Positions 4,701-52,100 of a DNA stretch of 61,381 nt are shown piece after piece. The translations under genes were made by a program, and so were the position numbers. Within the stretch, counting starts at the first letter, position 1. Every line of letters starts with the position of its first letter. The notes beneath the pieces are model-generated. The model saw only the letters and a list, made by a program, of their open reading frames with translations. It did no database searches and was not told the DNA's origin. This stretch comes from Chromera velia. Its lineage: Eukaryota; Sar; Chromeraceae. The DNA is taken from NCBI GenBank assembly GCA_018398765.1, contig JAHBMJ010003661.1:22501-83881 (forward strand), read 5' to 3'.

Positions 4701-6971
4701 ATGATGACTTCCCAGATGTCTGTCCCCTACTACGGGGACACCATGAATCCAGACCTCCGGAATGAACGCGTCGGGTCAGTCAGTCAGTCCGGCAGGGAGC
4801 ACGCCTGCAGGACCACATGCGCCTAGCTGTCTGCTGTAAAGATTTCTTGTTCTGTCTCTCAGTCGAAACATGCGGACGCTGGTGTCTTTAAATCGAAGAG
4901 CAACATTCGTGTGCCTGCCTGTCCCGGTGAGTGCAGAGCAACCTTCAAGGATACCGACATGACTCAAATCCTGTACGGGGAGCAGTATCTGACCAGACTT
5001 GCTCGGCTCAGGTCCGCATGTGGTGATTTGCTGTGAATGTAATATTACTGCATGTGTCTGGCGCATTCGCTGGCAGCAACCCTCACTCCTCCCATTCCCT
5101 TTTCTGCGCATGCACGGTTACCCTGAAAGATTCTGGTGCAAAAGACGGAGTCCTGTGCTGAAAGGCGTCTCCTCTCCTCTTCGCTTCACTTCTCGTCACC
5201 TCCTCTGCCACCCTGGCCCACCTTTTTGGTACCCGGGAGTGTGGAAACACAGATGTTGAAATGCTGCGTGTGGTCCTATGGCAGCAGACTTCAGCCCCCT
5301 CCTGCGTGTACGTCCTGTGTATACAGAAAAATGATGGCCCACTCGCCCAGTGCGGACCTAAAGGACCTCTGGCAGGGCGGGAAATACGACCGGTACCTGA
5401 AGGCGTGCGAGCGCGCGTATGACTACGTTCGGTGAGTGCCGGTAAGAATCATTTTGTTCTTGGGATAGAACTTTGCGAGTGAAAGGATCTTTTATACTTG
5501 GGCGGAAGTGCTTCGGTTCTGTTGGTTCGATCGTGTCGATCTGGAGATGAAATCTTCGTTCTCGACAGAAGTACAGGAGTGTTTCTGTTCTCCTCGGTGT
5601 TGAGTTTTGTGCGCGGTGAGGCGACGAGAGCGATACCATTTGGTATTTTTTTTGAAAGCAAAAAGAAGAGGCGGGTGGAGAAATGAAGAGTTTGTGCTTG
5701 TACTCATGTTTCCCACCCACCCTGACCAACTTGTACTCACTGCTGATGCACGGTCGGTCTTTCAAAACAAAATGTTGATAGACGACCAAAACGTTGTGAT
5801 GATGGTGGCAGAAGTCAAGCTCGGCCAACTCTAAGCTTCTCGGCTCGTGGTTTCTTTCTTTCTTTCTGTGTTGTACGTTTGTTTGATTTGATTTCGTTTG
5901 CTCCCCTTTCTTGCTTGCAGCATTTCCCGCCAACACCAGCTTTCGAAGGAAGACGGCGACTTGCTGATGATTCTTTTCGGTGAAGACTTTTTCCTGGCAC
6001 TCCATATGATCATGTTCCTGCCCTCTCTGGAGGTCAGAGAGAGAGAAAGGAAATGCTAGAAAGAGAAGTTTCTTCCTGCGGAGGACGTCTTCCTTCTTAT
6101 CTTTTTGATATTCGTCACATGCAGAGACAGACAAATGACAATACCAATGTACATTTTCTACCGCAAGATCACCTGAAAACCCGTATTTTGTTTCAAATTT
6201 TTTTTCCCGAATTGGACAAGTGCCACAGTGCAACTCTCCTGCCTCTCCTCACCTGCAGAGCATGGCAGACGACGAGCAGCAGAGAGAGTGGCTCCCCCTC
6301 GCTCGTGACTTTCGGATCTTCGGGACCTACGCCCAGACGGAGTTGGGCCATGGATCGAATGTTCCGGGAATTGAGACCACTGCGGAGTTTGACAAGTGAG
6401 TGCGTGAGTGATTTGAAAAGAAAAAAAAGTCGAAAAAACTGCACTCATTCCTGGATTGAGACTAGGCACTCATTCCTGGATTGAGACTAGAAGAAGATCA
6501 GAAGTTCGTGTAAGGTCCGCCAAGTTAGCGATCGCTCGCAGCTGAAACAACGGAAACGAATCAGAATTTGAATGAAAAGAGAGACCGACTGTAAGTGAGT
6601 GTAGCGAAAATCCATAGGAGAGACAGACAGGGGAAATTGTCTTTTGTTTTGACACCCGGCGTAGAGGAGAGTCGAATGCCATCGGAAGGGGGGGGGGGGC
6701 GAGTGTCTGTGAAAGCTCCTTTGATGCCTTTGTTTCCTTTCCCGTTCCTTGTATGTGTGCACATGCGCAGGAAAAGCGACCAATGGGTTCTGAACACACC
6801 GATGCTGACTGTTAGTTGGTTGGAGTTGCGTGAGGGCGAAAGCGAAGGGCCAAAAAGTTGAAGGAAAGCACAGAGGGATGAGGGGGATAGAAACAATAGT
6901 ATGAAACGCGCCTGTATGCATGTGCACGCATGGGCTTTTTTGCTACCTTTCGGTTTGCTTCTGTCTCCCTG

Positions 6972-7002
<31 letters not shown>

Positions 7003-8893
7003 TTCTTTTTTTCTGTACATGTGTTCGTGTGTACCATCTCTTTGTCCGTTTTTGGCCCGTTTCCATTTTTTTTTTCTGTTCTTTCTGGTCGAAGAGATTC
7101 AGGCGTACCTTGGTTGGTGCATGTGAATGTGCGTGAGTACAGCATCTGTGCATTTCTCTATATATGTGTATATACGCACTCGTGCATACATACGTGTATG
7201 TGTGTGTGTGGCTTCGTGCAGTCCACCAAATGGTGGCCTGGGGGACTTGCCAAGTGAGTTGCCTGCACGTTTATTGCCTGTCTTTTGTCTGTATTCCTCG
7301 ATTGTTGATTTTTCTGATGCGTGGGTCGCCCCCTTTTGTTTTCCTTTTTCTTCTTTGCGCTGGAGACCCCGACCAGCCTTTCCTTTTGTTTTTGAAGACC
7401 CCCATCTGTTTGAAAGGTCCTTTCTTTTTTGTCACGGAGAAAGAAGACACATCTGTGAGTGAGTTAGTGAGTCAGTGAGTCAGTCTGCTTCTTCGCATCC
7501 GCATTCTGACCAAGGAGAGAAGAAAGAAAATGGCCTTCCAAATTTCTTTTCTGCAGGTCCTGCACTCACTGCATCTTGATGGCACGCGTGGTGATTGACG
7601 GGAAAGATTTCGGGCCGCACCCGTTTTTCTTTCAGGTCCGCAACCTGGCTGTCGAAAGAACCGTCGGCTGTTCGTTTTGAGCAACAGCAGCAGGGGCCTA
7701 TTGGTGCCTGCTGTGCGTTTTTTTTCTTACGTGAATCTTCATTTGGTGCATCAGAAGCAGTTTCTCTTGTGGATGCCAAGCTTTCTGTACGCCACATATC
7801 GCATAGTCAAACGACGACGAAGGAATGCTGTTTTTGTCTGCCGTCCCGGAACTCACAGTGTTCCTTCCTTCCTTCCACACACTCGAATGAATGCATGTCC
7901 GTAGTGCTTCTCTTCTCCCCGGCCCCTAGGAAGGATCCTCATGTTCATGCTTGGATAGAAAATGTGCAAACTGGTCTACGGTGTTGCTTTTCTCTGCGTG
8001 CGTCAATACAGGTGCGTGATCTGAACACTCACGAAAGCCTTCCCGGCGTCTCTCTTTGGGACATCGGGTCGAAACTTGGGTACAATGGAATGGACAACGG
8101 AGCGATGCAGCTGGCGAACGTGAGGATCCCCAGGAGGAATCTCTTGATGAGGTCGGTCAGTCGAGGGAATGGGAATGGGAGCGGAACGGAGGAGGATAGC
8201 AAGGGAAGGATAAAGGGGGAATGAGGTAGATCGGCTGTCCCCTCCCCTTTCTTTCTTTCTTTCTTTCGTTCTGCCCTTCCAGTCTGACTGCCTCGTTTTG
8301 AGAATGTGCTTCGATTCGAGTCCTGCCTGTGTGTTGCTTTACCTGTGTATTTCTCTAATTTCTTCGTTTTTGGCTGTGCGGCTGCATGAGATCTTCTTCA
8401 GGTGTTGACGGACGATGCTGTCCTTGTTCCTCTGGCAATGACCTATTTTTTTGCTTTCCTTGTGAGTGACTGTATTCAGGTACACACGAGTGGACAGGGA
8501 TGGGACCTACTCGAAGGTCGGATTGTTTGCGTACTCTCTCCCTCCCGACTCCTCCTCCTTTCTGATCTTCAAGAGAAAAAGAAGAGAAAAAGGGTCCATC
8601 TGTCGGAGCCGTCTCTCTCCCTTGCGACTTTCATTCCATACCCTGTCTTGGTATCATTCTCGCTTGCTCGCTTCTCTTGTTCCTTCCTCCTTCCTTCCTT
8701 CCTTGTTTCCTGCCTTGTTCTGTCTGTCGATTAATTTATACTTTTCCGGCATCTTCGTTTACAATTTTGTTTCCGAGGTGGAGAGAGGGTGAGCCAGTAG
8801 GGAGTGTCACAGCGGAGAAAAGAATGAAATGCATCGTCCAGGCAAGACGTCTGTTCTCTTTCTGATCGAAGCTTTTATTTGCATTCATTCTCT

Positions 8894-8927
<34 letters not shown>

Positions 8928-11900
8928 GTCACGGCACGGCATTCAGGTCGGGGACCAGAAGATGTTGTACGGCGCCATGACCTACACGCGCATGTCCATC
9001 ATCGCGGCAGCAGGGGCACATCTGGCCAAGGCACTCACCATTGCAGTCAGTCTGTCAGTCTGTTCCTTCCTTCGACTTTCTCTTTTCCTTCCCCTCACTC
9101 TGACTGCATTCACACACAGAGGGATGACACGCGTGAGGCCCTCACGGCTGCATGCAGGGAGCCAACCAGCAATCCAATCAGAGGGTCTCTTTATGACCCC
9201 CCTTTCCTCCCCCTGTAACTGCAGATTCGGTACAGCGCAGTGCGTCGCCAATTCGCCCTTCCTGGAGGCGGCCCCCAGGGCAAAGGCAAGGCGGAGGAGG
9301 AGGAGGCAGAGTTCGAAGCAAGCACCGAGGTGGACCCCTCTATTTCTGGACCTCACGCAGAAAGAGAGGCAAGGAAGGCCGAGGTGGACGGGGAGCGCGC
9401 AGGGGAAAATGTGGTGAAGCGGGTCAGCACGAGTCCCTAGCAGTTGTTGACACGTCGGAAATATTGTTTTTGTTCCAATCGTTCGGACACAATTGATTGA
9501 CTGCACGTGACAAACACACAGATAGATTCACGCATGCCTTGGACTGAACTAAGTGGGTGGAAAAGGAACGAAGAAACGACAAGCGGTCCATAGTTGGAAC
9601 GTGCAAGAAGAAAGCTCATTTAAAATGCTGAAAGCCCTTGCAGTCTGATAAATGTCTGGCTGTTTCGTGCCCTCTCCGCCCTTTTTGCTTCTCCGTTCAT
9701 TGAATGTGTGTTCCTTTTTTCATCCTCTTTGTTTTTCATTTACTCTCTGCGTGTGTGTGTGTGTGCAGGAGATGCGAAGAGAAGCCGCAAGGGCGTTGGA
9801 GAAGGAGGTCCAGGTCCGTCAGTAGGTAGCTGCACGATAGATCCTTTTTTTTTCTTTTGGGGGGGTTGCTGCGCGCTTTTTTTTTGTGTGAAATCTCGTT
9901 GCGGGAGGGATTTGTGCAAGAGGGCCCTCCCTCGTTGGTAGGCGACAATCAAAGGGTTGATTTGATTTGTCTGAGAAAACAGAAAACGAGATCGACGGGC
10001 ATGCGGCACAGAGTCGCGATGCCAGCATGCATGCACCACACACAGAAAAAGACAGTAGATTGTAGAGGAGAGATGAAGTGCCGAGGAATAGGGAGATGCT
10101 CTGCGGGTTCTGGTCCATGAGATGATGCCTTTTCAGGAACTTGAAATCGTTGATCGATTCACTTCTGATGGAGATCGTCCGAAGGAAGGCTGTCTCTCGA
10201 TCTCGCTTGCCAGGCTCGGGTGATGAAGTCTTCTAAGAAGCTGCCCCCCCTTGGTTCATTTCTCTCCCCTCCTCGCATTTCTTGTCAGCTGCATTCCTGC
10301 CCTTTCTTTCTCTTCAAAATTCTCTTTTCCTTCGTATTTGTCACTTTCTTCTCCCTCCTTGCAGGTTCTGGACTACAGTTCCCAGCAGTTCATTCTGTTC
10401 CCCCTTCTAGCAGCAGGTGAGAGACAGAGAGAGATTCTGTGATCGCATCCGTTTCCTATCTTGTTTTGTCCGTCCGTGCTTTTGCTACGTAGAGAAACGC
10501 TGAGAGAAAAAGTCCGTGCAAATTGTCTTGACGAAATGAGACTTCTTTTTCACAATTTCCTTCTTTCTGTCTGCCTTGCTTTGCTTCGGCTTCAGGCTAC
10601 GGTATGCATTTTGCTGGGAAGTGGGTGAGGTCTGCGTACGAGTCTTTCATGGAGAGGGCGAGAGGGGGAGACTTCTCGCGGCTTCAGGACATTCACGTGA
10701 CTACTTGCGGTGAGTTGCGGAGTGTTTTTGGTGCAGTCGGAGAGAGGAGGCTCTTGTCTTTTGTTTGCATATGCGCTTTCATGGAAACCGGAAGTGGCGT
10801 CTCGAACACTCAATTCCTGCGAATGGTCTTCTGAAGGATCTGAAGGGTTTCTTCTTCATATAAGTCAGCTCATTGTTGCAACTTGTGTGTTTGTATGGGT
10901 GCGCATTACTTGGGTTCCCTGGAGAGATGTGTGATGTTGTCGCGTGCTTTCTTCTCTCTCCCTCCCTCTGTATGCGTGTGTGTGTGTGTGTGTGTGCGTG
11001 TGTGTGCGTGTGTGTGTGTGCGTGTGTGTGTGTGTGTGTGTGTGCAGCACTGAAGGCTCATTGCACCCAAGTTGTGGCAGACGGAATGGAACAGGCCCGA
11101 CGTTCTTGTGGAGGACACGGGTATCTTCTGGTAAGTGCCCGCCCATATGCTGTTTTTTTTTTGCGTGACATGGTACTTGACTGCCTGTAGGCATCTCCTC
11201 CTGTGAGGCACCTTTTCGTTTCCGTCTCTGTCTGTCAGTGCTCCTTTGAAGCGAGTTGGGGCCGACGGGTGTGTTGCTAGGTGCTTTGTGTCCTGCGTGT
11301 GATCTGCACACTTGAGGAATTCTTGCCCTATTCTTCAACTCTCTCTCTCTCTCTTGTGTCCCCTTGCTCTTTTCAGTCTGCCGGTATCGGGGGTCAACTC
11401 CAAAACTTTCTCTCTCTCTTGTGTCCCCCTGCTCTTCTCAGTCTGCCGGTATCGGGGGTCAACTCCAAAGCTTTCTCTCTCTCTTGTGTCCCCTTGCTCT
11501 TTTCAGTCTGCCGGTATCGGGGGTCAACTCCAAAACTTTCTCTCTCTCTTGTGTCCCCTTGCTCTTTTCAGTCTGCCGGTATCGGGGGTCAACTCCAAAA
11601 CTTTCTCTCTCTCTTGTGTCCCCTTGCTCTTTTCAGTCTGCCGGTATCGGGGGTCAACTCCAAAACTTTCTCTCTCTCTTGTGTCCCCTTGCTCTTTTCA
11701 GTCTGCCGGTATCGGGGGTCAACTCCAAAGCTTTCTCTCTCTCTTGTGTCCCCTTGCTCTTTTCAGTCTGCCGGTATCGGGGGTCAACTCCAAAACTTTC
11801 TCTCTCTCTTGTGTCCCCTTGCTCTTTTCAGTCTGCCGGTATCGGGGGTCAACTCCAAAACTTTCTCTCTCTCTTGTGTCCCCTTGCTCTTTTCAGTCTG

Positions 11901-12743
11901 CCGGTATCGGGGGTCAACTCCAAAACTTCACCCCCCAAGTGACCTACGAGGGTGATTTCGTTGTCCTCTCTATCCAAACTGGTCGCGCCCTGCTGAAACT
12001 CGTCGCAAAGAAGATGAAGGGAAAGCCCACCAACCTGCCTCCAGAAAGCGAGTTGACGTATATCACAACTCACGATCCTTTTGCGGTACGTATGCTGCTT
12101 GTCGTGACTTTTTTTCTTCTTCTTCTGTCAGTTTTCCTCGAATTTTGTTTTTGCCGCCATAAATGAGTTTTCTGTTGAAACATCGTGATCACCAAATGCA
12201 TGGATGGATCCGCGTGGGCGGTTGTTCAATGCTGCTGTGTTTTCTTTCTCTGTTTTGAGTTTGAGTCATTGAGGAGTTGATTGGAATCCTTTCGGATGAT
12301 TCCTTCCGTGCGTGCAGACCCACAGCCCTTCCGCTCCTGGGTCGCTGCTCGACTTTTCGTGGCAACTGTCCGTCTTCAGGAGGAGGGCTTGCCATCTGAT
12401 CATGACAGCAGCAAAGAAGTTTGCAGACTCGGCAGGGGCAGGAAGAAGCCCGGTAGGTTTCCATCCTTTTTTTTCAAGTTCGGTCTCACCTTTTTTGGCC
12501 CTAAACCCCCTTTCTCTCGTAGCGCGCTCTTCGTGTCCCTTCAAGGAGTCAGTCTAAATGCACGAACGATTTTCGACAAGGGCACTTGGGACACCGTTTG
12601 GTGGTGGAAGCGGGTTTTCTGGGAATTCCGTCTTTTTTGATTGATGCATTTTTTGTGCTTGAATCCACAGAATCCCGATTTCATTCTTCAATTCATTCCT
12701 TTTTTTTTTCTCCTCAATTGTCGCTCCCTCCAGTTAACTCTGT

Positions 12744-12780
<37 letters not shown>

Positions 12781-12988
12781 CAGCTGCTGGCCCTCGATGA
12801 CGTGAAGATAGACATGTGCAGAGTGACCAAAGCCCACGCAGCTGTGTTGGTTCTCACGGTGGGCTTCTGATGTTTCTGTCTTCCTGTCTTGCGCTCTCTT
12901 TTTGGCAGCATCTCCTTCTTTCTTTGTGTTGGGGGGTGGCGGGGATTTCACTAAGTCTTTGGCCATATCTTTCCTCTCCCTAGCTGTG

Positions 12989-13024
<36 letters not shown>

Positions 13025-13057
13025 ATGAAGAAAAGAAGGGAGAAGAAGAAACATATA

Positions 13058-13091
<34 letters not shown>

Positions 13092-13120
13092 GTCTGTCTG
13101 TCTCTGTCTGTCTGTCTGTC

Positions 13121-13159
<39 letters not shown>

Positions 13160-13255
13160 CTGTCTGTCTGTCTGTCTCTGTCTGTCTGTCTGTCTGTCTT
13201 CCTGTCTATCCGAAAGAAAGGAAGTGAAAAAGTGAAGTAAAGGAAAGACGATATA

Positions 13256-13286
<31 letters not shown>

Positions 13287-15031
13287 CGAACTCTGGTACC
13301 CTTCCACTGAGAGAGCGCGCCAAAAGAAGAAAGAAAGAAACAGAAGAGAATGAAAAAGGTAAAAAAGGGAAAGAAAAGACGACATAGTCTGTCCGAAAGA
13401 AAGGAAGCGAAAAGAGAAGTAAAGAAAAGACGAAATAGTCTGTCTGCCTGTCTGTCTCAATTTCTGTCCTTGCTCTCGCTAGAAGGCCCCCATCATGAAT
13501 GGACGAAACGGAAGATCCAACGAGCGATCGAGACGGTCGCTCAGCAGAAGAGATTCGTTCCAAAGCATGCAGATGCACACTAGAATGAACAGTGAGCAAT
13601 TGTGTGCATGCATGTATCCATACATTTGCGCGCTCATACCGTTACCGATGCTTGCATAATATTCTCAAGTGCAGAAGTTCCAGCAAGCAGTCGAGGAAGT
13701 CGAAAGGAAGTGCTCTCAGGCGTCCACTGTGGGCCCTCCTCTGCGAACCCTGTGCAACCTGTACGCTCTCTCGGAGATGGACAGCTGCATGGGTGACTTT
13801 GTGATCTCCAAAGCGCTCCCTGTGGGGGGGGGGCTTGCGGTAAGCCGTCTGCTGCTTTTTGCTTATTCTTCCTGGACGTCGGTGAATTGTTCTTTTCTCA
13901 TCTGTGAGTGTCTAGTAGCGCCTTTCCTTTTTCGTTTTCTTATGGAGTTCAGACTTTGTTTTCTCTGGGGAGCTATATAAAGTGTTCTTCTTTCTAGGTG
14001 CGTGACCAATTTTTGTCGTCTCGCTTGCCCCGCTGATTCAGCTCCTGCGGTCTTTCGTCTTCTTTCTTTTTCTGTATTTGAGTCTTTTTGATTTTTTTTG
14101 CAGCCTTTTCGAATTTCTGAAAGAAGCATGTGCTTTTATCGTGGTGATGTTCTTTTCTGATCCTTCATATGTTTTTTTTTTTTTTTTTTTCTTGCCTCTT
14201 AACATGATGCCATGCAGGACAAGATTCTTGAGGAGATGAAGAGGCTCTGCAGAGAACTCCGGCCGAACGCCGTCTCTCTCGTAGACGCTTGGCAGTTCCC
14301 CGACTATCTCCTGAACTCCGCTCTCGGCAGATACGATGGCAGGGTTTATGAGGTGCGCTCTTGCTCTTGAGTCTCGTTGGTCGATTTCCTTTTTCTGCAT
14401 GCATGGGGGGGGCATCGGATCCCTTAGTTCTTTCTTCCCTTCTCGCTTGTCCCTCGACTGACCAAGAGGATCACAGGTTCCCTCTCTTCCTTTCACGTGA
14501 GTAGCTGCCTGGTAGGCCTTCCTCTTGCTCTTCTCTCTTCCTTACTCGATCCCTGCCTCCTTCCCTCCCCGCAGGCATTGATGGACTCCGTGAGACATGA
14601 GCCCAACAACACCAGCGATGTCCATGAGGTCAGCCCTGATAGGATAGAGGGAAAAGGTGGTCTCTCGCGATCGAATATGTAAATCTGCTTGTCTCTTGCA
14701 CTTTCTCTCTCTTGCTCTCTTCTGATCGGGAGAAGGCGCGAAAATGTCAGGCATTCTTCCTGAAGACACCAATGAAGAATTCATTCGTGTGAGGGCGCAT
14801 TCATGTTTTCCTCTTTACTTCTCTCCATCTCTGACAAGACATCCTGTTCAGTTTTCCCCTTCTCTTGCCGTATCCTCCTTTCTGGCTTCATGAATATTGT
14901 ATCAATACTAATATCGATATAATAAATGATGTATGAATGTGCAGTCCTACTACCGGAGCCTTCAGTACATTCTCCATCCTGAGAGAAAGCAGCAGCAGGG
15001 CGCGGGCATGCCTCTCCGGTCGAGGCTCTAA
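4701..15031 (+). CDS. ACOX: Peroxisomal acyl-CoA oxidase, 23 exons, about 753 aa
   Basis: Oxidises acyl-CoA to trans-2-enoyl-CoA with FAD and O2, giving H2O2: the first step of peroxisomal beta-oxidation. Exons: 4701-4774, 4937-5011, 5327-5431, 5921-6032, 6259-6395, 6771-6810, 7222-7253, 7557-7635, 8012-8151, 8480-8516, 8947-9045, 9225-9422, 9769-9813, 10365-10416, 10596-10709, 11048-11130, 11897-12085, 12318-12452, 12784-12858, 13675-13839, 14218-14352, 14575-14628, 14945-15031. Every phase joins. Family landmarks appear in order: MNPDLRNER at the start, [13 protein letters not shown] (about 144), TKWWPGG, SCGGHGY (about 466-472), the catalytic Glu in TYEGD (about 492) and C-terminal SRL, a PTS1. 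Exon 12 (residues 311-376) adds about 45 charged residues compared with animal ACOX (about 660 aa). The acceptor of exon 17 is the last of nine tandem copies. Start choice: ATG 4701, or 4704. Exon edges are by eye; the 5'-most introns are least certain. Confidence 0.93.
6441..6490. repeat. 25-bp perfect tandem duplication in ACOX intron 5
   Basis: Units 6441-6465 and 6466-6490 are identical. They begin 46 bp after the exon 5 donor and do not include it. Confidence 0.95.
10975..11046. repeat. (TG)n tract ending in the ACOX exon 16 acceptor
   Basis: TG repeats with CG interruptions run directly into TGTGCAG, the acceptor of exon 16. Similar TG tracts precede the acceptors at 9768 and 7221. Confidence 0.9.
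11338..11925 (+). repeat. 65-bp array: nine copies of the ACOX exon 17 splice acceptor
   Basis: Each unit holds the intron end (CT-rich tract, TTTTCAG) plus the first roughly 30 nt of exon 17. Exon-start copies begin at 11377, 11442, 11507, 11572, 11637, 11702, 11767, 11832 and 11897, exactly 65 bp apart, with only a few substitutions (for example TTCTCAG at the second copy, A/G near the unit end). The last copy continues into the conserved coding sequence. No stop occurs in any forward frame across the array. Confidence 0.97.
12747..12783. repeat. (CT)n polypyrimidine tract at the ACOX exon 19 acceptor
   Basis: A CT run joins directly to TTGCAG before exon 19 and serves as an unusually long polypyrimidine tract. 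Confidence 0.9.
12983..13460. repeat. (TGTC)n microsatellite and purine-rich minisatellite in ACOX intron 19
   Basis: TGTC runs alternate with purine-rich blocks of GAAAG type. A phrase of the form AAGACGAxATAGTCTGTC recurs near 13050, 13245, 13376 and 13425, so the whole block looks like a degenerate higher-order repeat. It is non-coding intron. Confidence 0.85.
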
Positions 15032-18190: not shown

Positions 18191-20220
18191 GTCGATGAAA
18201 GTGGAAAGACCATCATGAAAAGATTCATCATGCAAATAAACAGAAAGACGAAAGTGAAGCGGCTAGAAACGGCTGTTATTCAAGTAAAAAAGATGAGAGT
18301 GGCTGTTACATTTAAGTAAAAAAGATGAAAGTAGAAAGAAATTTAACGTCTGCATGTCTACTTTGATATAGGACTTCTGGTGTGTTCATGTGTGTTCTAG
18401 CTTTTAATAAGCCTTTCATTGTTGTTTCAGTATTCCACGATCAACCATTTAAAACAATTTTGACTATATATCAAAAAAAAAATTGTTTATACTTTGAAAG
18501 TTCTTAAACCAAAAGTATCCAAAATTTGTAATGGTAAACTATGCAAAGTTGTACTTAAATTTTAACTTAAATAAATAAATTCATACTTTTTTTTCATTTC
18601 TATATGTAGTTTTATATGTCCAGCCGCAAATAAGCGTAAGCCCATTCAGTTTTTCATGCAGAACTTTTTCTACTAAATTCCTACCTAGGAAGAATTTTAT
18701 AGAAACGTTAACTCACAATGTATTGCTATAGTGAATATGTTGAAAATTCTACTAGAAATTCCATGTGAGGAACTTGTTCTTTATTTTTTATTGTTGTAAA
18801 CTCCATCCTCCCAATGATTCTGCTTTTCACATTTTAGGAAGGCAAAAACATTCTATTTGGTCCAGGAAAAGCCCATATCCAAGCATATGAAAACAGAAAA
18901 GAAAACCAGAAAAATGAAACTGGAGCAGACGTCATACACGCAGACAGACAAGAAAGATGAAGACTGAAAGGTCGTTATGTGAGGAGACAAGGAAGATGAA
19001 AGTGAAGCGGACTTTCTGCAAGCAGACGGGCTAATGACAGGCTAGCAGATAGAAAAGATTGATGAAACTGGAGAGGCCGTCATATACGCAGACAGGAAAG
19101 TTGGGAGCGCCGAGACCCGTCATGCAAGCAGGCAAGACGGACGAAAGCGGAGGAAAGTGGAAAGTCATCGTGCATGCACAGGAAAGATGGGACCTGAGAA
19201 GACGTCATACAAACCGACAGGAAACATGGAAGCGGAAAAGCTTTCATGCAAGTCGACAGAAAAGATTCATGAAACTGGAGAGGCCCTTAACACGCAGGCA
19301 GGAAAGATGGAAGCTAGCGGAAAGGAGTCATGCAAGCCGGCAAGATAGACAAAAGTGGGGAGTCGGCGTGCAAGCAAACAGCGAAGGTGGAAGCTGAGAA
19401 CACGTCATGCAAACCGGCAGGAAACATGGAAGCAAAGACGCTTTCATGCAAGTCGACAGGAACGACGCAAGTAGAGAGGTGGTCAAACACGCCGGCAGGA
19501 AAATTAAGATGGAAGCGCGGAAAGCCGTCATGCAAGCACACACGACAGGAGAAAGTAGAGACCCACCAGGCAAGCAAAAAGGAAAGATGGGAATATGAAA
19601 GTGGAGAGGTCGTCATGCAAACAGACAGAAAGATGGGAGTGGAGAGGCCGTCGTGCAAACAGACAGAACGATGAAAGTACAGAGGCCTTCGTGCAAACAG
19701 ACAGAACGATGAACGTGGAGAGGCCGTCATACAAACAGAGAGAACGATCAAAGTGGAGAGGCCGACATGCAAACAGACAGAACGATCAAAGTGGAGAGGC
19801 CGTCATGCAAACAGACAGAAAGATGGAAGTGGAGAGGCCGTCATGCAAACAGACAGAACGATCAAAGCGCAGAGGCCGTCATGCAAACAGACAGAACGAT
19901 CAAAGTGGAGAGGCCGCCATGCAAACAGACAGGACGATCAAAGCGCAGAGGCCGTCATGCAGACAGACAGAACGATCAAAGTGGAGAGGCCGTCATGCAA
20001 ACAGACAGAAAGATGGAAGTGGAGAGGCCGTCATGCAAACAGACAGAACGATCAAAGTGGAGAGGCTGTCCTGCAAACAGACAGAACGATGAAAGTGGAG
20101 AGGCTGTCATGCAAACAGACAGAACGATGAAAGTGGAGAGGCTGTCATGCAAACAGACAAAAAGATAAAAGTGGAGAGAAGTTCAACGTCTGCGTGTCTA
20201 TCTTCATATAGGAATTCTGG
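18191..20220. repeat. 38-bp minisatellite with degenerate left part and duplicated end segment
   Basis: A regular 38-bp array (unit with ATGCAAACAGACAGAACGAT and AAAGTGGAGAGGCCGTC) fills about 19590-20160. More diverged units (GTCATGCAA, GACAGGAAAGATGGAAG) extend left to about 18940 and reappear at 18191-18340. A closing segment of about 63 bp occurs twice: 18317-18380 and 20157-20220 (both end TATAGGAxTTCTGG). An AT-rich single-copy block (18381-18930) separates the two parts. All three forward frames are open across the regular array because 38 is not a multiple of 3 and the unit lacks stops; I do not call it coding. Confidence 0.88.
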
Positions 20221-21102: not shown

Positions 21103-24100
21103 ATGAGTTTTTTCCTCTCGATCCTCCTAGCCTTTGTTCTGTGTGGAAGTTCGCCCGACGCTTTCCGCCTTCCTCACTTTCCAGTTAAGTCATCACGTCT
21201 GGCGCTGCAGTCTTCCAGACAAGACACCATACTCACGAGACGACACCGCCTCCTTCCCATTCCAGACAAGGCCTTCCGGATTCCGATGCAGCCGTCGCTG
21301 TATTCGTCTGAAGACACGTACACGGAGACGGACAACAGGCCGCCGTCTCCTCAATTCACCCGTTCCGTGCACGTGAAAGTGAAGCACACAGGCGGGCCTG
21401 TCGCAGCCCGGAAGCGCAGAATTGTGAAAGAGGCCGAGAACCTCTATCTGCGTGCTCAGACGGCCCAGCGCAAGCATGACATCGTAGCTTGCCTGGATGT
21501 TGCGGTTGCTGCTGCGCTCGAGGGCGACCTTTGCCATTATGTTCCTGAAGGGGGGGGGGAGGTGAAGGAGATTCTCGGGTTGTTGGTAGAGAATGCGCTG
21601 AAACGTACCCGCAGACTAGGAAAGTCAGACGACGCCCTGAAAGTTCTTAAGCGCGTTGCGTCAGGCAGGTACCCTGTAGCGCTTTCCGAGTCCTTCCTGG
21701 ACGCGGGAATGGGGACCTGCTGGAATCATATGCTGAGGCTGAAGGCGCAGCGTCTGGATAAGTGGAAGCTGCGAGAAGAGGTGCAGAGAGTGGCGGATTG
21801 CGCACTTGCGATGCGGCGTGTGCAGGCAGATTCCGGTCTCTCTGTCGTGTCGTCAACGGAGGATGGGCCGGGGGCGTCTGGTGATTCGCATGTGTTCGGG
21901 TATTTGTTTTTGCGTTGTATGGGGAGGGCAGGGTATGTGAAGGAGGCACTAGAGATGCTGAAAGAGGTTTTGAGAGGACTGAGTCAGCGGGGTCGAACGT
22001 CTAATCTCACTCACCTATACAATGCTGTGCTGAGTGCCTGTCAGACCTCGGACGAGGTGAGGTCGTTAGGGACTGCGACGAAGTTGATTGACCAACTGGT
22101 CGCGTCCCCCGGTTCCTCACCCGGTGTTTCCAGTTTCAATCTGGCAATCGGGTCTTGTGCGCTTGGAAGGCGATGGAGGGCAGCGAAACGGCTCTATAAG
22201 CGCATGCAGTCGCTAGGGCTTCAGCCTGATTCGTACACATTCACAGCGCTCTTGCACGCCTGTGCAGGCAAAACAACGGTGGGGGCAAAAAAGCAATTCC
22301 ACCAGAGACGTCCGGTGGAGGGTCCGGCTAGTCGGTCGTTTGAATTGAGGGAGACACGGGAGGGGGTGGAATTCGCGATGGAAATATTGGAGGTAGAGAT
22401 GCCTCGGCAGAAAGTGCCTCCTTCTTCGTTTCACTTGACTAGCGTTTTGAAGGCTTGTGCTCAGTTGAAGTTGCTAGTCAATCCGCGCCGTGAGTGGGCA
22501 AGGGGGTGGCCGGGCGAGGGTTTGATTCCGCGTCTAAAGAAGCTCCCAGAGGAAACAAACATCAGGCTTGCAAACGGCACGTCTGTCAGTTCGACCGATT
22601 TGTCGTTTCATCTTTTTGAGAGACTGCGGGAGTTGGTAGAGCGGGGGGCGGGGGAAGGGGGGGCGCATCGGGCGGACGGATCGTCTTTGCTTGTTGCCAT
22701 AACCCCTGACCTCCCACTTCTTGATGAGAGGGAGAAGGGGGTGAGTGTGAAAGACCTCACGGACATGAAAGTTCCGTGTGGATGGTCAACAAACGAGCCT
22801 TCGAGAATGCATGACCCTTCATCATTCTTTGCTAGGTCTTCCGAGCTTAGAGACTCTCAGTGGGCCTCTACAGCTCTGTTGGTGAGTGCCTTGGAGCGGC
22901 AGAAGGTCCCGCTGACCCGGGACATGTTCAATGTCTTGCTTGCAAAGTGTGCAGAGGCGGCAAAGTGGGCCAAGGCACGTGAGTTCATAGAAGAGATGAA
23001 GAGAAGGGGGGGGGAGACATCGCCCGACGAATTGTCGTTTACATGGCTGCTCCGCTCGTTTGCGAAGGCCGGGAGGGTGCCCGAGGCGTGGGGTGTGTTG
23101 AGAGAAATGGAAGAAGCCGGCCTGAAACCGACCGTTTTGACATTCACCTCCCTTTTCCATGCAGTGGCCTCGGCTGTACAACTGGGTCGGGATGTGGATT
23201 TGTCACTGAATGCGGGGAGGGGTGTTTGCGAGAATGTGAGCGCTATGGAGGTTGGGAATCAGCCGGGGGCAGTGGGAAAGGAAGCAGTAGTTGATGAGAA
23301 AGGGAGAGAAGGGCGTGATGGGTTGCTTGCTGAGAGCGTGTCTGAGAAAAAAAATGGGGGTGAGAGGGGGGGAACGATGGGGGTGGTGGCGTCTGTGGTG
23401 GATTCGGTTGATATGATTATGTCGGAGATGCGGGAACGGAATGTGGCTCCTGATATTGTTTGCTTGAATGCCGCAATGGAGGCGCGTAGGTGTTTGGGGG
23501 GAGGGAAGAAAGGGGTGACGGCACTGTTTGCGGAAATTTTGGAGAGAGATCTTTTGCCAGAATCCGCTACATACTCCGTTCTTTTGAATACGCTTTGGAG
23601 AGAGGGGAGGTCTGGGGTGCGTGTGAATTCAGAAGAGTGGTCTCTGATTGCAGAGTCGATGCATGAAGATCGATCACGTGTCGATTCGTTTGCGTTTGCG
23701 TTGTTATTTCGTGTGTTGCTTGAGAGTCGAGAGTTCGAATTGCTGCTCTCTGTTTGGGACCGGTTGGTCCGAGAGGAGAGGTCGGAGAGGTGGTTGGGGA
23801 GACGGAGTATGCGGTACGCCCTTATCGCATGCAAAGAACTGGGTGAGAGGGAAGGGTACAGTAGAGAGCATGCGATGGGTTTGAAGGGGAAAGTGTTGGT
23901 GGGAGCATTTCGTTTGGGTTTGATTGATTCTAGGAGGGAAAACCCGGATGCTGGGGTGAGGGCAGATGCCGAGGCGGTCTGGAGGGAGGCCGTCCTTGCG
24001 GTCGGTCAGGGGCGGCTTTATGATGAAATGGAAATTCTTCTTGATCTCCGTATGCAAAGGGGGTTGGGTGAGGAGGAGATGCGCCCCGAATTGGCGGAGG

Positions 24101-24750
24101 ATGCCCATGAGAGAGCACTGGACTTCCTTTTCAATGCGCTGATTGCCAATTCAAATGGCGAAGGGGGGGATGTGGCGGATATGATTGCACTTGAGACTGT
24201 TCTTTTTATTCTCGAGAAAAGGGGGCTGATGCCTGCCCCGTTTGTGTCGGAGGACTGGGGGGCTTCTAGATCTCCGGTGTTTGAGGCGCATGTTGACGCC
24301 TCGGGGGGGTGGTCTGCGTTGGCATGTTTCTTCGCAGTGAAGGGAGCGCTGTTCCGTTTGCGTGGCCCTGTGTGGGCAGTCGTGAATGGGTGGGGGGTCG
24401 GGAGCTCTCACTCTCTTGATGTGAGGGCTTCTGTGACCCTTTCGAGTGGGTCCTCTGCAGAGGAGATGCAGAAGGAAACTGTGGCTGAGATGCCATTGCG
24501 ATACCTTCTCTCGGACTATCTGTCTCCCTCCCTGCGCAGCTGCGTTGAGGTTCGACAAGGAGCCGATGAGCAGTGGCACAGGATTCTGTTTCTCGATCCG
24601 ATGAGCGTTCTCGCCCATGCAGAGCCGCCCTGGCACCCTGTAGAAGAACCGGATTTCCGGGACACTTGGAGGGGTCCTTGGGATGTGGATGAGTTTGGGC
24701 AGGAAGAACGGGCAGAGAAAGTACCATCATTACGGTTGATGAACGGATGA
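21103..24750 (+). CDS. Intronless PPR protein with plastid-type leader, 1215 aa
   Basis: Probably an organelle RNA-binding factor acting in RNA processing, stability or translation. Residues 1-21 are a signal peptide (hydrophobic core, ending SSPDA-F), followed by a Ser/Arg/Lys-rich, acid-poor region to about 60. This is the signal-plus-transit layout with F at the junction that is used for complex plastids. Pentatricopeptide helix pairs are visible around 345-385 (LYKRMQSLGLQPDSYTF), around 610-700 (FIEEMKRR..SPDELSFTWLL and VLREMEEAGLKPTVLTF) and around 765-830 (MRERNVAPDIV, ILERDLLPESATYSVLL). The C-terminal third is not clearly PPR; no DYW or SMR domain is recognised. A single exon of 3.6 kb contrasts with the intron-dense neighbours. 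The start is the first ATG and places the signal peptide at the N-terminus. Confidence 0.85.
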   Translation: MSFFLSILLAFVLCGSSPDAFRLPHFPVKSSRLALQSSRQDTILTRRHRLLPIPDKAFRIPMQPSLYSSEDTYTETDNRPPSPQFTRSVHVKVKHTGGPVAARKRRIVKEAENLYLRAQTAQRKHDIVACLDVAVAAALEGDLCHYVPEGGGEVKEILGLLVENALKRTRRLGKSDDALKVLKRVASGRYPVALSESFLDAGMGTCWNHMLRLKAQRLDKWKLREEVQRVADCALAMRRVQADSGLSVVSSTEDGPGASGDSHVFGYLFLRCMGRAGYVKEALEMLKEVLRGLSQRGRTSNLTHLYNAVLSACQTSDEVRSLGTATKLIDQLVASPGSSPGVSSFNLAIGSCALGRRWRAAKRLYKRMQSLGLQPDSYTFTALLHACAGKTTVGAKKQFHQRRPVEGPASRSFELRETREGVEFAMEILEVEMPRQKVPPSSFHLTSVLKACAQLKLLVNPRREWARGWPGEGLIPRLKKLPEETNIRLANGTSVSSTDLSFHLFERLRELVERGAGEGGAHRADGSSLLVAITPDLPLLDEREKGVSVKDLTDMKVPCGWSTNEPSRMHDPSSFFARSSELRDSQWASTALLVSALERQKVPLTRDMFNVLLAKCAEAAKWAKAREFIEEMKRRGGETSPDELSFTWLLRSFAKAGRVPEAWGVLREMEEAGLKPTVLTFTSLFHAVASAVQLGRDVDLSLNAGRGVCENVSAMEVGNQPGAVGKEAVVDEKGREGRDGLLAESVSEKKNGGERGGTMGVVASVVDSVDMIMSEMRERNVAPDIVCLNAAMEARRCLGGGKKGVTALFAEILERDLLPESATYSVLLNTLWREGRSGVRVNSEEWSLIAESMHEDRSRVDSFAFALLFRVLLESREFELLLSVWDRLVREERSERWLGRRSMRYALIACKELGEREGYSREHAMGLKGKVLVGAFRLGLIDSRRENPDAGVRADAEAVWREAVLAVGQGRLYDEMEILLDLRMQRGLGEEEMRPELAEDAHERALDFLFNALIANSNGEGGDVADMIALETVLFILEKRGLMPAPFVSEDWGASRSPVFEAHVDASGGWSALACFFAVKGALFRLRGPVWAVVNGWGVGSSHSLDVRASVTLSSGSSAEEMQKETVAEMPLRYLLSDYLSPSLRSCVEVRQGADEQWHRILFLDPMSVLAHAEPPWHPVEEPDFRDTWRGPWDVDEFGQEERAEKVPSLRLMNG

Positions 24751-35725: not shown

Positions 35726-37962
35726 CTTCGTGTCTATGCGTGCGCGCAAGCGTACATCTGTTTGTGACTCTCTTTCTCTCTCCCTCTGTCTCTCTCTCTG
35801 TCCCACATAGCTGCCTGCCTGTGTGAACCCGTGGTCGTGTTTCTCGTTCGTTCGTGTATCTGTGGGGGGGAGGGGGTGGTCCCTGGGTGTGTGCGTGTGT
35901 GTCAATGAGCAGGTGTTCGTTTGTATGTGTGCGTGTGTGAGTGGGTGTCTCTGTCCCAAACAGCAAGCGAGCCAGCGCGCGCACGAGTGTGTATGTATGT
36001 GTCAGACAGAGAGAGAAAGCAAGAGCGTATGTATCCATTTGAGCCACCTGAGAGGGTTTGTTGTAGTAGGGCGTCACAATCAGAGCTCCGTCAGCTCCGA
36101 GCTGCAGGAGGAAAGGACGAACATGGACGTATACGCACATGTAAACAAACAAACAGAGAGAGAGANNNNNNNNNNNNNNNNNNNNNNNNNNNNNNNNNNN
36201 NNNNNNNNNNNNNNNNNNNNNNNNNNNNNNNNNNNNNNNNNNNNNNNNNNNNNNNNNNNNNNNNNNNNNNNNNNNNNNNNNNNNNNNNNNNNNNNNNNNN
36301 NNNNNNNNNNNNNNNNNNNNNNNNNNNNNNNNNNNNNNNNNNNNNNNNNNNNNNNNNNNNNNNNNNNNGGGGGGGGGGGGGGAGGGAGAGGGAGATGTAG
36401 GGAGTCACGGAAACAGGAGAGAGGGGGGCATGCATCCAACGCTTCCGCCCCCCGAAGAAGAGAATTGCCAAACGCACCGTTGTCTCACACAGAGAATTCG
36501 AGCACACACGCGCACACTTCTGCAGAAAGCTTTCTCGTTTTCGGCCCTCTCCCTTTTCAGTGAGCACGTGAATGCACAGAGATGAAGACATTGCAAGATG
36601 GAATCACACGAGGAAGAACTGGCACAGATGAAGCCAGGGGAAAAGCAGAAAACTTTGGAAGGAACGAAACGGGTCTGACTGAGGAAAGGAACCGGCGGAT
36701 GTTCATGCAGACAGTCAGGCGGAAAGAGACGGCAAGGGGTAGAGTGACACACGGCCTGTCAGACAGACAGACAGACCTTCAGTGCTTTCTTTGTCTTTTC
36801 GATTGTCGTCTTGGTTGAGTTCGTACCCGTCCCTGAGAGTGAACCGATAAGCAAGAGGGAGGGAGTGACGGAAGAGTGCCAGGAGGACACCTCAGATCCT
36901 AGGTTGAAGCAAGAAAGAATCAAGACGAGGGGAGGCAAGAAGGATTGTTTTTTTCTGTTTCTTGACAAGGTTGAAAGAGGTATCGGGAAAGATGAGCGCT
37001 CGGCTTTGCGTCCCGATGTATCTCCAAGCACCCATGCTGAGATCCGGAGGTGCGAATCAACAGATGTTCTTCTAGAAGAACTTAGTCGTGGGTTAACCAT
37101 TTGAAGAGATGCATTGAGGTGCATCCGGCATCCCTCCAGCAAAACGCAAAGAAAGAAAGAAAGAAAGACACAAAAGCTGAACGACTGACCGACCAGCTAC
37201 GATGGGAATCCGTCCGGCCGAATGGGACACAGCGCACTTCACAACTTCCTCGAACTCGTCCACTGTAGGGGATTCTCCTGTTGTGCCCAGCTGCGTCCAC
37301 ACCCACGTACTCACTCATTCTTGAAGAAAAAAGAAAAAAAAAAAAGAAAAAAGGGGATTCTCCTGTTGTGCCCAGCTGCGTCCACACCCACGTACTCACT
37401 CATTCTCTCACTGACTGACTCGCCCATTGACTGACACATTGAACTTGCTCACGGAGACAGCCAAACCTCCACTAGTTCAACGTTACCGAAGGGAGGAGAC
37501 AAAAAGTAGGGACGCAAGAGACAGATCGAGCAGATCGAGAGAGATAGAAGGTCATGGGACCAAGTAAGCAACCAGGCTGGAGAGGGCAGCCACACTGCTC
37601 TGTCAGCACAGGATTCAGCTGAGCCGTGGAAGATCAAAACGATGCAGAGCAAAAGGCAACGATACAGAGCAAAAGGCAGCCGTGCCCTGAACGACGAGAC
37701 AGTCACAGCCAGGTGTATGTAGCCCAGACAGGCGACTTACAACGCAGAGGCCATTTGTGCCCTCAGAGATATGCCAGTCGATCAGTCTCTTGAAAGCCTG
37801 CAGCGAATCCAAGCAAAGCAAACATGGAAGATCTACTATGGAAGTACAAAGCGCATGCGAGACAGCAGGGCAACGAAGAGATACCTCATAGTCAATGTCT
37901 CCATTCTCAAACATTGGAGTCACGATTGCCGGGTAGAGCCCGTGGAAGTTCGCGGGCTTCAT
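30969..37962 (-). CDS. dapA: 4-hydroxy-tetrahydrodipicolinate synthase, 13 exons, 285 aa
   Basis: Condenses pyruvate with aspartate semialdehyde, the first committed step of diaminopimelate/lysine synthesis. Exons from 5' to 3': 37885-37962, 37741-37797, 37194-37290, 36777-36832, 36048-36101, 35177-35292, 34728-34771, 33788-33836, 33460-33497, 32689-32762, 31967-32014, 31602-31671, 30969-31045; phases all join. Landmarks: [10 protein letters not shown] (8-17), LGTTGES (46-52, the TT pair of the active site), YNVPGRTG with Tyr136 and Arg141, Schiff-base Lys164 in ATKEASG, and [14 protein letters not shown]. Arg141 favours DapA over N-acetylneuraminate lyase, which has a different residue there. 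Length matches the bacterial enzyme (about 292). A few residues before GEDG seem missing relative to bacteria, so the 33788-33836/33460-33497 junction and the last exon are the weakest parts. No targeting leader is visible; an in-frame upstream ATG at 38014-38016 adds only 18 residues. Confidence 0.88.
32051..32094. repeat. (CA)n(GA)n microsatellite in a dapA intron
   Basis: On the coding (minus) strand it reads (CT)n then (GT)n, lying upstream of the acceptor of exon 31967-32014. Similar blocks sit at about 33520-33582 and 34417-34530. Confidence 0.9.
34156..34300. repeat. (GACT)n repeat in a dapA intron
   Basis: GACTGACTGAC-type units with GACG variants run for about 140 bp. The open minus frames here (Ser-Gln-Ser-Val repeats) are products of the repeat and not coding. 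Confidence 0.93.
35360..35525. repeat. Three tandem copies of a 52-55 bp unit in a dapA intron
   Basis: CTGCTCTCCCTCTTAGTC recurs at 35371, 35426 and 35478, each preceded by a T run and followed by GGAAGGAAGG. It lies upstream of the acceptor of exon 35177-35292 without including it. Confidence 0.92.
36166..36368. other. Assembly gap (203 N) in a dapA intron
   Basis: The gap is flanked by (GA)n on the left and a run of about 14 G on the right. It lies in the intron between exons 36777-36832 and 36048-36101, so the coding model is unaffected. Confidence 0.99.
37268..37406 (-). repeat. Tandem duplication of the dapA exon 3 splice acceptor
   Basis: 54 bp at 37268-37321 recur identically at 37353-37406 (85-bp period). 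On the minus strand each copy reads intron end, GACGCAG, then the first 23 nt of exon 3 (LGTTGES region). The outer copy then runs into a T-rich spacer instead of coding sequence, so only the inner one (boundary 37290/37291) leads into the full exon. Confidence 0.96.
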
Positions 37963-47244: not shown

Positions 47245-49025
47245 TCAATTGGAAAGGGGCACGATTTCTTCTTCTTCAGCGACAGCGCTTTGCAGCGCCA
47301 CCTTGGGGGGAAGCAGGTCCCGTTTCTGCATACAAACACAACAGATCGAAGGATCAGTCTCTGACAGAAAGAAAGAAAGAAAGAAAGAAAGAACACAAAG
47401 AGGGAAGAAGAAACCACGGCTGGCAGTGTAAGGGATGAATGAAAGCCGTGCTACCCAGATGATATCGAAAGACGGTTCAGTAACCTCCTGCATCTCTTTG
47501 CTTCTTCACGTACCAACTTGTCGTCCACCTTACTGAATGTCAGCACGCAGACTTTCTAAGTCGACTGGCCGACTGACCTTCAGGACGACCTTTGCGGACA
47601 GATTCTCATGGGTGAGTTCGCACACCTCCCCCACAGGTACGGTGTCTGCGAGGAACTCCAAGAGAGTGGCCGTCCATCGCACGAGCTGGGGGGCCTTCCA
47701 CCTGCATGCCATCACGTGCATGCACAGACAGTGGCAACGGGCCATTATCGTGGTGTTCTCGTACTGTCTTGGTGCATGCATGCACATTCCACTGGGCCAA
47801 CAGGCCTGGAGACAGACGGCACGACGAGGTACAAGCACGAAGAAGGAAGAAAGAAAAGTAGCGGCCCACGAATCGAGGACGGATGGATGAAAAACAAGAT
47901 GCCGGAAAGGTTTTCTCCCCCACAGAAAGAACCGATATGAACACCGAATGAAACAAGCTCACCCCGCTGAATCCAACCGCATCCCATCTCGTTTGAGGGT
48001 CGGTACCACCGAATGTTCCTTGCTTGAGAGCCTGCCTATGGCAATGACTTACAGGTATCTTTCCTTTCTGGCCTCCCTAGTAACGTGCATTTACTTTCAC
48101 ACAGGGGGAAAAAAAGACTTACAGGTATCTTTCCTTTCTGGCCTCCCTAGTGACATGCATTTACTTTCATACAGGGGAAAAAAAAAAGACTTACAGGTAT
48201 CTTTCCTTTCTGGCCTCCCTAGTCACGTGTTGGATTTGGGGCAGTCTCTTCACCGTCATGTTCCCCATCGTCTGTCCCCTCTCTGCATCTGCCACCTGCG
48301 TGCAATCACCCAACCAACCAACCACACAGACGAACACCCTTATCCACACTCACACGCACTGAGAGGTAGGACGGGACGGAGAAAGAGAAAGGGACAGAGA
48401 GGGAGAGAGAGAACGGGGGAGAAAGGGGGGCGGGACGAAAAGATAGGAACGAAGCGAGAAAGAAAAAGAAACACATGTCTATTCCCTCACGTCCCTCTAT
48501 GCCACTCAACATCGACGCAGCATCGGCCAACAGAGAGGCTTCTGGGGAGAAGGAGGCAAACTTCAGAGGGAAGGAAGGAAGGAAGGAAGGAAGGACTCGA
48601 TCAATTCATCCATCGTATGGTTACCCAATTCAGCCAATCAAATTCACCCACCCACCGCCAATCTTGAGGGACCCCCAAGCATATGAGAGACCCAAGCGGA
48701 TCGCGCTTGGACCTCGTCCCACTGACGACCACCTGCGGAAACAAAGAGAAACCCACCCCGACACCTATGCAAGAAAGTATGCACCCGCTAAGACTTGATA
48801 GATAAAAACAGTAAACGAAACAGGGGACGGAGGACACACAGAAGAGAGTCCCGTGACTGCAGCCCGTACACTTGTGATGGAGAGAGCCCCAAGAAGAAAG
48901 AGAAAAAAAAGAAAAAAGAAAAGGAGGGGACGAACGACGAAAGAAAAAAATAAAGAACAAATAAATAAAGAAATAAAGAAATAAATAAATAAAGAAAGAA
49001 AGAAAGAAAAGAAAGAAAGAAAGAA

Positions 49026-49100: not shown

Positions 49101-52100
49101 GAAGAAAGAAGGAATAAAGGAAGGGATAGTTGGATGGATGAAAGGAAGGACCTAAGAACGAAAGCGAAGGAAAGTGAAAAAGGAACGGAAAGAAAAGAGG
49201 GAGGGAAGAAAGGAACAAAGCAAGCAACCAAGCAAGGCGATCGGGTCCTCGCTCTTCTTCTGTCCTCCGCTCACCCCTCCTGTGCGCAGCTGACGTAACA
49301 AAAAGACAAAAGGCGGGCACTCTCTTTTCCCCGCCCCTCCCCGAGTCTTGGCTTTCCTTTCTTTGCTACGGCTGCACCCTTCCAAAACTTTTTTGACTGA
49401 ACAAACGGGAGTGAACGTCAGTCCCGAGACAAATCATTCCGTCCAACGATTCCCAATCGAAGAACACCCATCACATTTGCACTCAACAAGCCGATGTTTG
49501 CCTTTCAGGCACTCTACAACTGACTGTTCTCGTAGTAGACGTCGACGCTCAACGAGCCCAATTGTATCAGAGAGGCCACCTTTTCTTCCTCCTCCTCTCC
49601 GAGACGCAAAATGGAAAACCCCGACTCTTCCTTTTCTGCTTTTCTGTGTTCATTCACAGATTCCTCCGCCTTCTCTTTTTCTGTCGAAATCACATGAGGC
49701 CTAAGGAAATCGTCTACCAGAGCCAGACGCCGACTCCATCGAGCTTCTGTGTCCCCCGTCTCAGTGTCTCCCCCCGCCTTCGGAGAGATGCCACCCGGAG
49801 TCTCCTCGAGTGCCGAATTCTCTTTTGACTCCATCATGTCAGAGAAAGAAGGCCACTCACCGAAACGAGAGGACCCGACGGGGTTCCAGTCCCCCGTCTC
49901 CACCTCCACCTCCCCCCCTTCCTTCTCACGTCTCATCGCCCAGATCTCCAAGTCGACCTGCACGGAGTTTACACACACACACACGAAAAAAGTCGTGACC
50001 CCTTTTTGCAAATCACGACTGCGAGAGAGAGAGACTACCAATATACAAGGAGAGTAGAAGAGAGTCGAAGGAGAAGAACAGCCACTCCGCCCAACCCACC
50101 CCGTCGATCACTCCCCCCCCCCCCNNNNNNNNNNNNNNNNNNNNNNNNNNNNNNNNNNNNNNNNNNNNNNNNNNNNNNNNNNNNNNNNNNNNNNNNNNNN
50201 NNNNNNNNNNNNNNNNNNNNNNNNNNNNNNNNNNNNNNNNNNNNNNNNNNNNNNNNNNNNNNNNNNNNNNNNNNNNNNNNNNNNNNNNNNNNNNNNNNNN
50301 NNNNNNNNNNNNNNNNNNNNNNNNNNNNNNNNNNNNNNNNNNNNNNNNNNNNNNNNNNNNNNNNNNNCCCCCCCCCCCCCCCTTCAAACCTGAGGAAGCT
50401 CACTGGCGACCAAGAGAGAAATATTCCTCTTGCTTCCCGGCACCTTCTTTCGAAGAGCCACGAAAGAGGCTTGACGGGGGTCTCGCTCATCTGCCGCAAC
50501 CTCCCTCAACAATTGGTTTCTGTCTCCTACAATGCCTGCACACAACAGGATCAGAGGCCGACTAGCTGATCGTCTCTCTCGTTCGGAACGCCTTCGACAG
50601 GACCCTCGGCGGAAAGGAAGGAAGCAAATTCAGCGGTGCAAAGTACGGATTCGTGCGTGAACAGACAGACATATGCATTCTTCTTGGGCTCTTTTTTCCT
50701 GCCATACCTCCAGGTCGAACCATCGGGAGGGAGGGAGGGAGGGAGGGAGGGAGAAGAATCAAACAAGGCCAGTCGGAATGAAAGCCTTTGCCTGCGAGTG
50801 AATTCTCGATAAGCAAGCAAGGTCCGTCTCACAACAGAATGACAGTTTGCACATTCCGGGAATTTTTACGACGTGCACGATTCAATTCTCATACAGGAGA
50901 GACAGATAGACATGCAGGAAGGAACGCAAACTGGTCATGTGCATGAGAGGTCATCACGGGATCCAATTAAGGGCGCTCAACAAGAGTGACGCACGCAAAA
51001 AGAAGCCAGACGACATCAGGGTAGGCATATTCCAGTTTCACAAAAAAAGAAGGTGAAAGGATCTGTGCACGCTTTTGCTTGGCTTCAGACGTATCTCACG
51101 GACCGACCAGATGCAAAGAAATGATCTTCTGTTGGGTCCTCTCGGTAAATGATGACGCTGCAAGGGGGGGGGCAGAGGATCGAGCAGGATGGGTCTGGGT
51201 GTATGTCTGTCTAGCCTGCCTGATGAGTGAGAGTGGGTGTATGTCTGTCTAGCCTGCCTGATGAGTGAGAGTGGGTGGAATTGACGAAGGGAGCGGCATC
51301 CCTCCCGTGTGGGTCTGATAGAGAAGGGACGAACCGATTTCAGAGAAGAAAATTCAAACATCCATGTGTGTCCTTCAAACTCAGCTTCCGAAGCCATTTC
51401 CTTCCAAGGGAAGGAAGGAAAAGTGTTCCTTCCTTCCTTCCTCCCTCCTTCTTGATGGAAAGCCTCTTACTGACTGCTCAATTCGGTCTTTTGATGCATG
51501 CACAACAAACGGAAGCAGGGCTCTGCTCTGCTCCCTCCAGAAAGCAAAGAACAGTCACAGGAGCAAGGAGAGACATACAAAGGGACGGAAACGAAACCCA
51601 CCCACACGCCACCCCCCGCACTCCCCTAGAGCGCTCCCTCCCATCAAGTCAGAGAGAGCGAGAGAGAGCGGGGGGGAGAGGGGGCGCCAAGAATTCTCGA
51701 CACCACACACCCACCTCCCTCTTCCTCTCTATGCGCTTGTGAATGCATGTTTATGTGTATCCGTGTGCCGTCCATGCATGCAAATGTGTGTATGTGTGCA
51801 AGTGTGAGAGTGAGTGCGAGTCTTAACTGCTTCATTCGTCTGCAGGCACTCCCCTCTTCGTTTAATTCCGCAGGCCCCCCCCTGCGACCCCATGCAACTC
51901 CCCACTCACTCACTCACTTCCTCACTGACTGACTGACTGTTTGCTGTCCGGTCTGTAGATCAAGGCCTTCCATCCCTCCAGGAGCTCTGAGGGAGTCTCG
52001 GCCAGCCGCCGCATCGTATCCATCGTTCCCACAAACTCCACTTGACCCACGTCAGAGTGCATCAAATTCTCACTCCCTCCCTCACCGTCAAACACCATGG

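Follow-up and report, generated by a model that had tools for sequence, protein, structure and literature searches.

A tandem array of nine splice acceptors in an acyl-CoA oxidase gene of Chromera velia, most likely a passive minisatellite across an intron–exon boundary

When an intron ends in a row of nearly identical splice acceptors, it has to be asked which of them is used, and whether the others serve a purpose or are tolerated. This question is raised by an acyl-CoA oxidase (ACOX) gene of Chromera velia, in which the last part of intron 16 is repeated in tandem together with the first part of exon 17. The array was analyzed within a 61,381-nucleotide stretch of DNA (contig JAHBMJ010003661.1, positions 22,501 to 83,881 of the forward strand), which is referred to below as the window, and positions are those of the window unless another stretch is named.

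RESULTS

The ACOX gene and other frames in the window

An exon model built by hand places the ACOX gene at positions 4701..15031 of the plus strand, with 23 exons and a 753-residue product that ends in -SRL, which we take to be a PTS1-like C terminus. In this model all 22 introns have GT-AG ends, and the exons form a single open frame. The product scored above the cut-off with four ACOX-type Pfam families, and a search against PDB matched 17 sequences, nine of which are ACOX, the best being rat ACO-II (1is2, E 2.9e-131). A previous reading of the sequence alone had called the exon at the array exon 17, and the hand-built model gave the same number, 17 of 23. If the ninth acceptor is used, intron 16 would span positions 11131..11896 (+) and would be 766 nt long, compared to 246 nt with the first acceptor, while exon 17, at positions 11897..12085 (+), would start with S475 after 1422 coding bases. 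Exon 17 contains E492, which aligns with Glu421 of rat ACO-II, presumably the catalytic base of that enzyme.

At other places in the gene, GT or CT dinucleotide runs, which are slippage-prone tracts, abut the acceptors of introns 12, 15, and 18 (ends at 9768, 11047, and 12783, respectively). The plus strand of the window also contains an open frame with a histone deacetylase domain at 57495-58976 (Pfam E 1e-99), for which an NCBIfam search gave no match, and a 1215-residue open frame with PPR repeats at 21103-24750.

Nine 65-bp units cover the boundary of intron 16 and exon 17

The array is located at positions 11342..11926 (+) and consists of nine 65-bp units. With the array delimited in this way, each unit has 35 nt from the last part of intron 16, followed by 30 nt from the beginning of exon 17. 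Tandem Repeats Finder placed it at 11344-11928, with a period of 65, 9.0 copies, 98% matches, and a score of 1142; at such a score and copy number, a chance origin is not an issue. The units are arranged head-to-tail with the acceptor AGs 65 bp apart, and the exon starts of copies 1 to 9 are at 11377, 11442, 11507, 11572, 11637, 11702, 11767, 11832, and 11897. The unit had been described as a polypyrimidine tract, the TTTTCAG sequence, and the first codons of exon 17, and this composition was found throughout, with the opening 30 coding bases of the exon in every unit, except that copy 2 reads TTCTCAG. The same description had called the nine copies exact. The nine units of 65 bp were indeed found, but only six of them (copies 3, 4, 5, 7, 8, and 9) are identical. 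Copy 1 (11342..11406, +) carries one substitution, at its own left edge beside the flank, copy 2 (11407..11471, +) carries three, two of which are in the pyrimidine tract and one in the exon-like part, and copy 6 (11667..11731, +) carries one. One variant base is common to copies 2 and 6; along copies 1-9 this position reads A G A A A G A A A, an order that would be expected if a block of four units had been duplicated.

Short reads are poorly suited to assembling 65-bp units that extend over 585 bp, so that a single copy or a shorter array could have been inflated during assembly or gap filling. The window does contain runs of N, at 36166-36368 and 50125-50367, but neither of them is close to the array, and the substitutions of copies 1, 2, and 6, some of them private and one shared, argue for true multiple copies, even if their exact number may differ from nine. 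Such an artefact is thus unlikely. When the unit was searched as DNA in its own assembly (177.8 Mb in 4040 contigs), at least nine matches were obtained, match counts being lower bounds in this search, and nine of nine were located within the array. The array is real in this assembly.

Which of the nine acceptors would be used

The acceptors were scored with a small model derived from the introns of the ACOX gene itself. The score was 6.22 bits in eight copies, while the lowest score, 1.56 bits, was obtained for copy 2. The sequence-only reading had considered the eight acceptors other than the ninth as complete and identical in their context; a CAG is present in all nine copies, in agreement with the first part of this claim, but the identity does not extend to copy 2. 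The acceptor of exon 17 ranks 16 of 22 in the gene, which is below average. As eight of the nine acceptors score alike, the ninth is not singled out by its local sequence.

The sizes of the exons and introns were also considered. The exons of the ACOX gene are 32-198 nt long, while those starting at the decoy acceptors would be 254-709 nt long. Because the exons of this gene are short, exon definition would disfavor the longer decoy exons, and if exons are recognized as units, the acceptor closest to the downstream donor would win. We infer that the ninth acceptor is the one in use, at least in most transcripts. The introns of the gene are 162-816 nt long, and the 246-nt intron ending at the first acceptor would be of ordinary size, so that intron recognition from the upstream side could favor the first acceptor. 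The branch-point motif yTnAy is absent from the unit and from positions 11241-11350; this motif barely discriminates here, as it was found in 11 of the 22 introns with 7.6 expected. Recursive splicing or mini-exons inside the array were also considered and are thought unlikely. Within the unit, the best GT reaches 3.45 bits (GGGGTCAAC), and the GT right after the exon start scores -4.35 bits, while the real donors of the gene score at least 5.8 bits in 21 of 22 cases and 0.0 in the remaining one.

What each acceptor would produce

With the ninth acceptor, the predicted product aligns without gaps at the junction of exons 16 and 17 in all five alignments shown, of nine sequences matched. Only copy 9 (11862..11926, +), which protein homology points to as the working acceptor, continues into the conserved coding sequence, as the sequence-only reading had also noted. 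The ninth acceptor is predicted to yield an ACOX protein that resembles the known ones. The products of the other acceptors would depend on k, the number of copies by which they lie upstream of the ninth. The frame would be kept only at k = 3 (copy 6, exon start 11702) and k = 6 (copy 3 at 11472..11536, +, exon start 11507), which would add 65 and 130 residues, respectively, with no stop in either frame along the array, while the other six decoys, including copy 1 (k = 8) and copy 2 (k = 7), would lose the frame. These consequences of the unit length had been correctly foreseen.

The open frames at k = 3 and k = 6 could suggest a device for making protein variants, with isoforms that carry 65 or 130 extra residues ahead of the presumed catalytic Glu. 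The inserts would lie 17 residues N-terminal to E492, the counterpart of rat Glu421 in the alignment. However, they would be placed exactly where the five alignments shown are gapless, and when the k = 3 product alone was compared, its best-matched stretch stopped at the junction, at query residue 86-88, in all eight matched sequences, a break that any foreign insert at this site would cause. A unit that is free of stops in all frames was obtained in 32% of 2000 dinucleotide shuffles, and the absence of stops was therefore rejected as a sign of design; the unit is pyrimidine-rich. Protein variants are thus a very improbable purpose of the array.

The six frameshifting decoys would reach a TGA 43 or 56 nt into exon 17, the stops thus lying within nt 43-58 of the exon. 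The fact that six of the eight decoys would shift the frame and run into a stop within this exon argues against a device for splice-site choice, but it could agree with an RNA-level rheostat, in which the decoys would be used at a real rate, most of them leading to early stops, and the copy number would tune the enzyme yield. The similar scores of eight of the nine acceptors are also consistent with this explanation. On the other hand, there was no sign of selection here, the copies being too alike for constraint to be read from them, and regular splicing is described as persisting in amphioxus genes that contain comparable arrays, known as mirages, in two reports (PMC3087553, PMC3902484). We regard such a rheostat as unlikely. 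Slightly more doubtful still is its extended form, in which copy-number-tunable acceptors would compete with the ninth, the array length would set the amount of surviving ACOX mRNA, and the array would act as a fast-mutating rheostat of fatty-acid oxidation. No support for a regulated switch was found in the sequence, homology, and shuffle analyses of the array.

How expected the array is, and other tandem arrays

If a 65-bp unit were placed at random in the ACOX gene, counting the array as part of it, a splice boundary would be covered in 26% of placements and an acceptor in 14%. When 30 bp or more are required on both sides of the boundary, the proportion falls to 2.6%, or 1.3% for acceptors. 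This lower value is a point against the explanation favored below, even though the threshold was chosen after the unit had been seen. Given these expectations, and the 32% of shuffles without stops, the remarkable features of the array are its copy number and the near-identity of its copies, and not its position or its openness.

Other tandem arrays were surveyed in 25 pieces with 246 kb of non-N sequence. The window was one of them, and the other 24 were 10-kb stretches selected by contig number, of which 18 lie at the start of a contig and six in the interior. Within limits of a period of 25-250, an identity of 90% or more, and no fewer than 1.9 copies, 11 young tandem arrays were found, including the ACOX array, which scores highest among them (1142 vs 657). 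High-scoring arrays outside these limits included one with a 428-bp unit in 2.0 copies (stretch L013, 1799-2653, score 1652) and one with a 343-bp unit in 1.9 copies (stretch L012, 3087-3744, score 941). A 38-bp unit present in 15.3 copies at 19598-20178 of the window (89% identity, score 896) was also outside the limits.

For two of the 11 arrays, namely the ACOX array and an array at 48046..48223 (-) of the window, a splice boundary could be assigned that gives an open frame. This second array repeats a splice donor, ACCT/GTAAGTC, in three copies spaced by 72 and 70 bp, with the GT at plus-strand coordinates 48194, 48122, and 48052. With the first donor, the exon 48295-48195 would be joined to 48031-47963 and two further exons, with the frame open to the stop codon, while the second donor would lead to stops and the intron from the third would be 21 nt long, so that only the first gives an open frame with an intron of normal size. 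As the exons were picked by eye and searches of Pfam and PDB with the product of this minus-strand gene gave no match, the boundary is defined by the frame and the splice signals alone.

Among the other nine arrays, those at 314-652 of stretch L010 and at 56127-56347 of the window look intronic by eye. The latter is made up of three 73-bp copies with 97% identity, which on the minus strand are shortly followed by an acceptor-like site. The L010 array contains a motif (TGTATGAAAGTAAACGCA) similar to one on the minus strand of window positions 48046-48223 (TGTRTGAAAGTAAATGCA), and the L010 motif adjoins a near inverted copy, which could suggest a small mobile element.

DISCUSSION

The closest precedents for the ACOX array are the mirages of amphioxus. 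Two reports describe them as minisatellite-like tandem repeats across intron–exon boundaries in Adh3 and globin genes (PMC3087553), and also in troponin C and, in an imperfect form, in PGBD5 (PMC3902484). The mirages and the ACOX array have in common a repeat that spans the boundary, which is on the acceptor side in BflGb6 and on the donor side in BflGb9, many units that carry splice signals, and homogenized inner copies. The two haplotypes of BflGb6 described there contain six and three units (PMC3087553). The units differ in size, those reported being 10-72 bp in Adh3 and 150-160 bp in BflGb6, whereas the ACOX array is built of nine near-identical 65-bp units, and the gene and, seemingly, the lineage are also different. 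The anatomical marks of a mirage are present in the ACOX array, known from the sequence of one assembly: its unit holds both intron and exon (35 nt and 30 nt) across what is predicted to be a real boundary, and the splice signals are retained, with a CAG in all nine copies. A human minisatellite described by Turri in 1995 is said to supply repeated donor splice sites in a gene. Its likeness to the ACOX array would be in the repeated splice sites, but these are donors, not acceptors.

Two other reports were compared. Tandem genomic duplication has been linked to intron gain (PMC4974935), and the duplication involves splice signals, as it does here, but the ACOX repeats extend an existing intron, and no new one is seen. 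The minisatellite of human DDX3Y (PMC3039753) was rejected as a parallel, as it is located upstream of the coding region and is discussed as a promoter element and not as a repeated acceptor. No report of a comparable acceptor array outside lancelets was recognized in a literature search, to which subscription papers were mostly inaccessible. The ACOX array most likely belongs to a known kind and is most likely passive, with this occurrence apparently being outside the lancelets.

The sequence-only reading had offered two explanations of the array, one being a device for splice-site choice and the other a slippage array, tolerated since it is the last site that wins. The second one is favored by the anatomy of the array and by the amphioxus precedent, while the first one is disfavored. 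We consider it likely that the array is a young minisatellite across the intron–exon boundary, which is tolerated as the exon-proximal acceptor is used. A 65-bp stretch running from the last part of intron 16 into exon 17 would have been duplicated in tandem and would have grown to nine copies through slippage or misaligned recombination, possibly seeded in the TC-rich end of the intron and proceeding partly by block duplication. The spliceosome would mostly choose the ninth acceptor, which is nearest to the downstream donor, and use of any of the six frameshifting decoys would introduce an early stop into the transcript. The consequences of the array would thus be small, and its copy number would be expected to vary.

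The presence of near-identical acceptors in one intron, with the same local sequence in eight of nine, makes the ACOX array a natural competition experiment. The acceptor that is used would show what decides the choice, the distance to the upstream donor, the branch point, or the downstream donor. The data also suggest that boundary-spanning minisatellites occur in another eukaryote, and mirages may also exist outside the lancelets. This is relevant to the tolerance of genomes for minisatellites at intron–exon boundaries and to the question of whether such minisatellites seed new introns.
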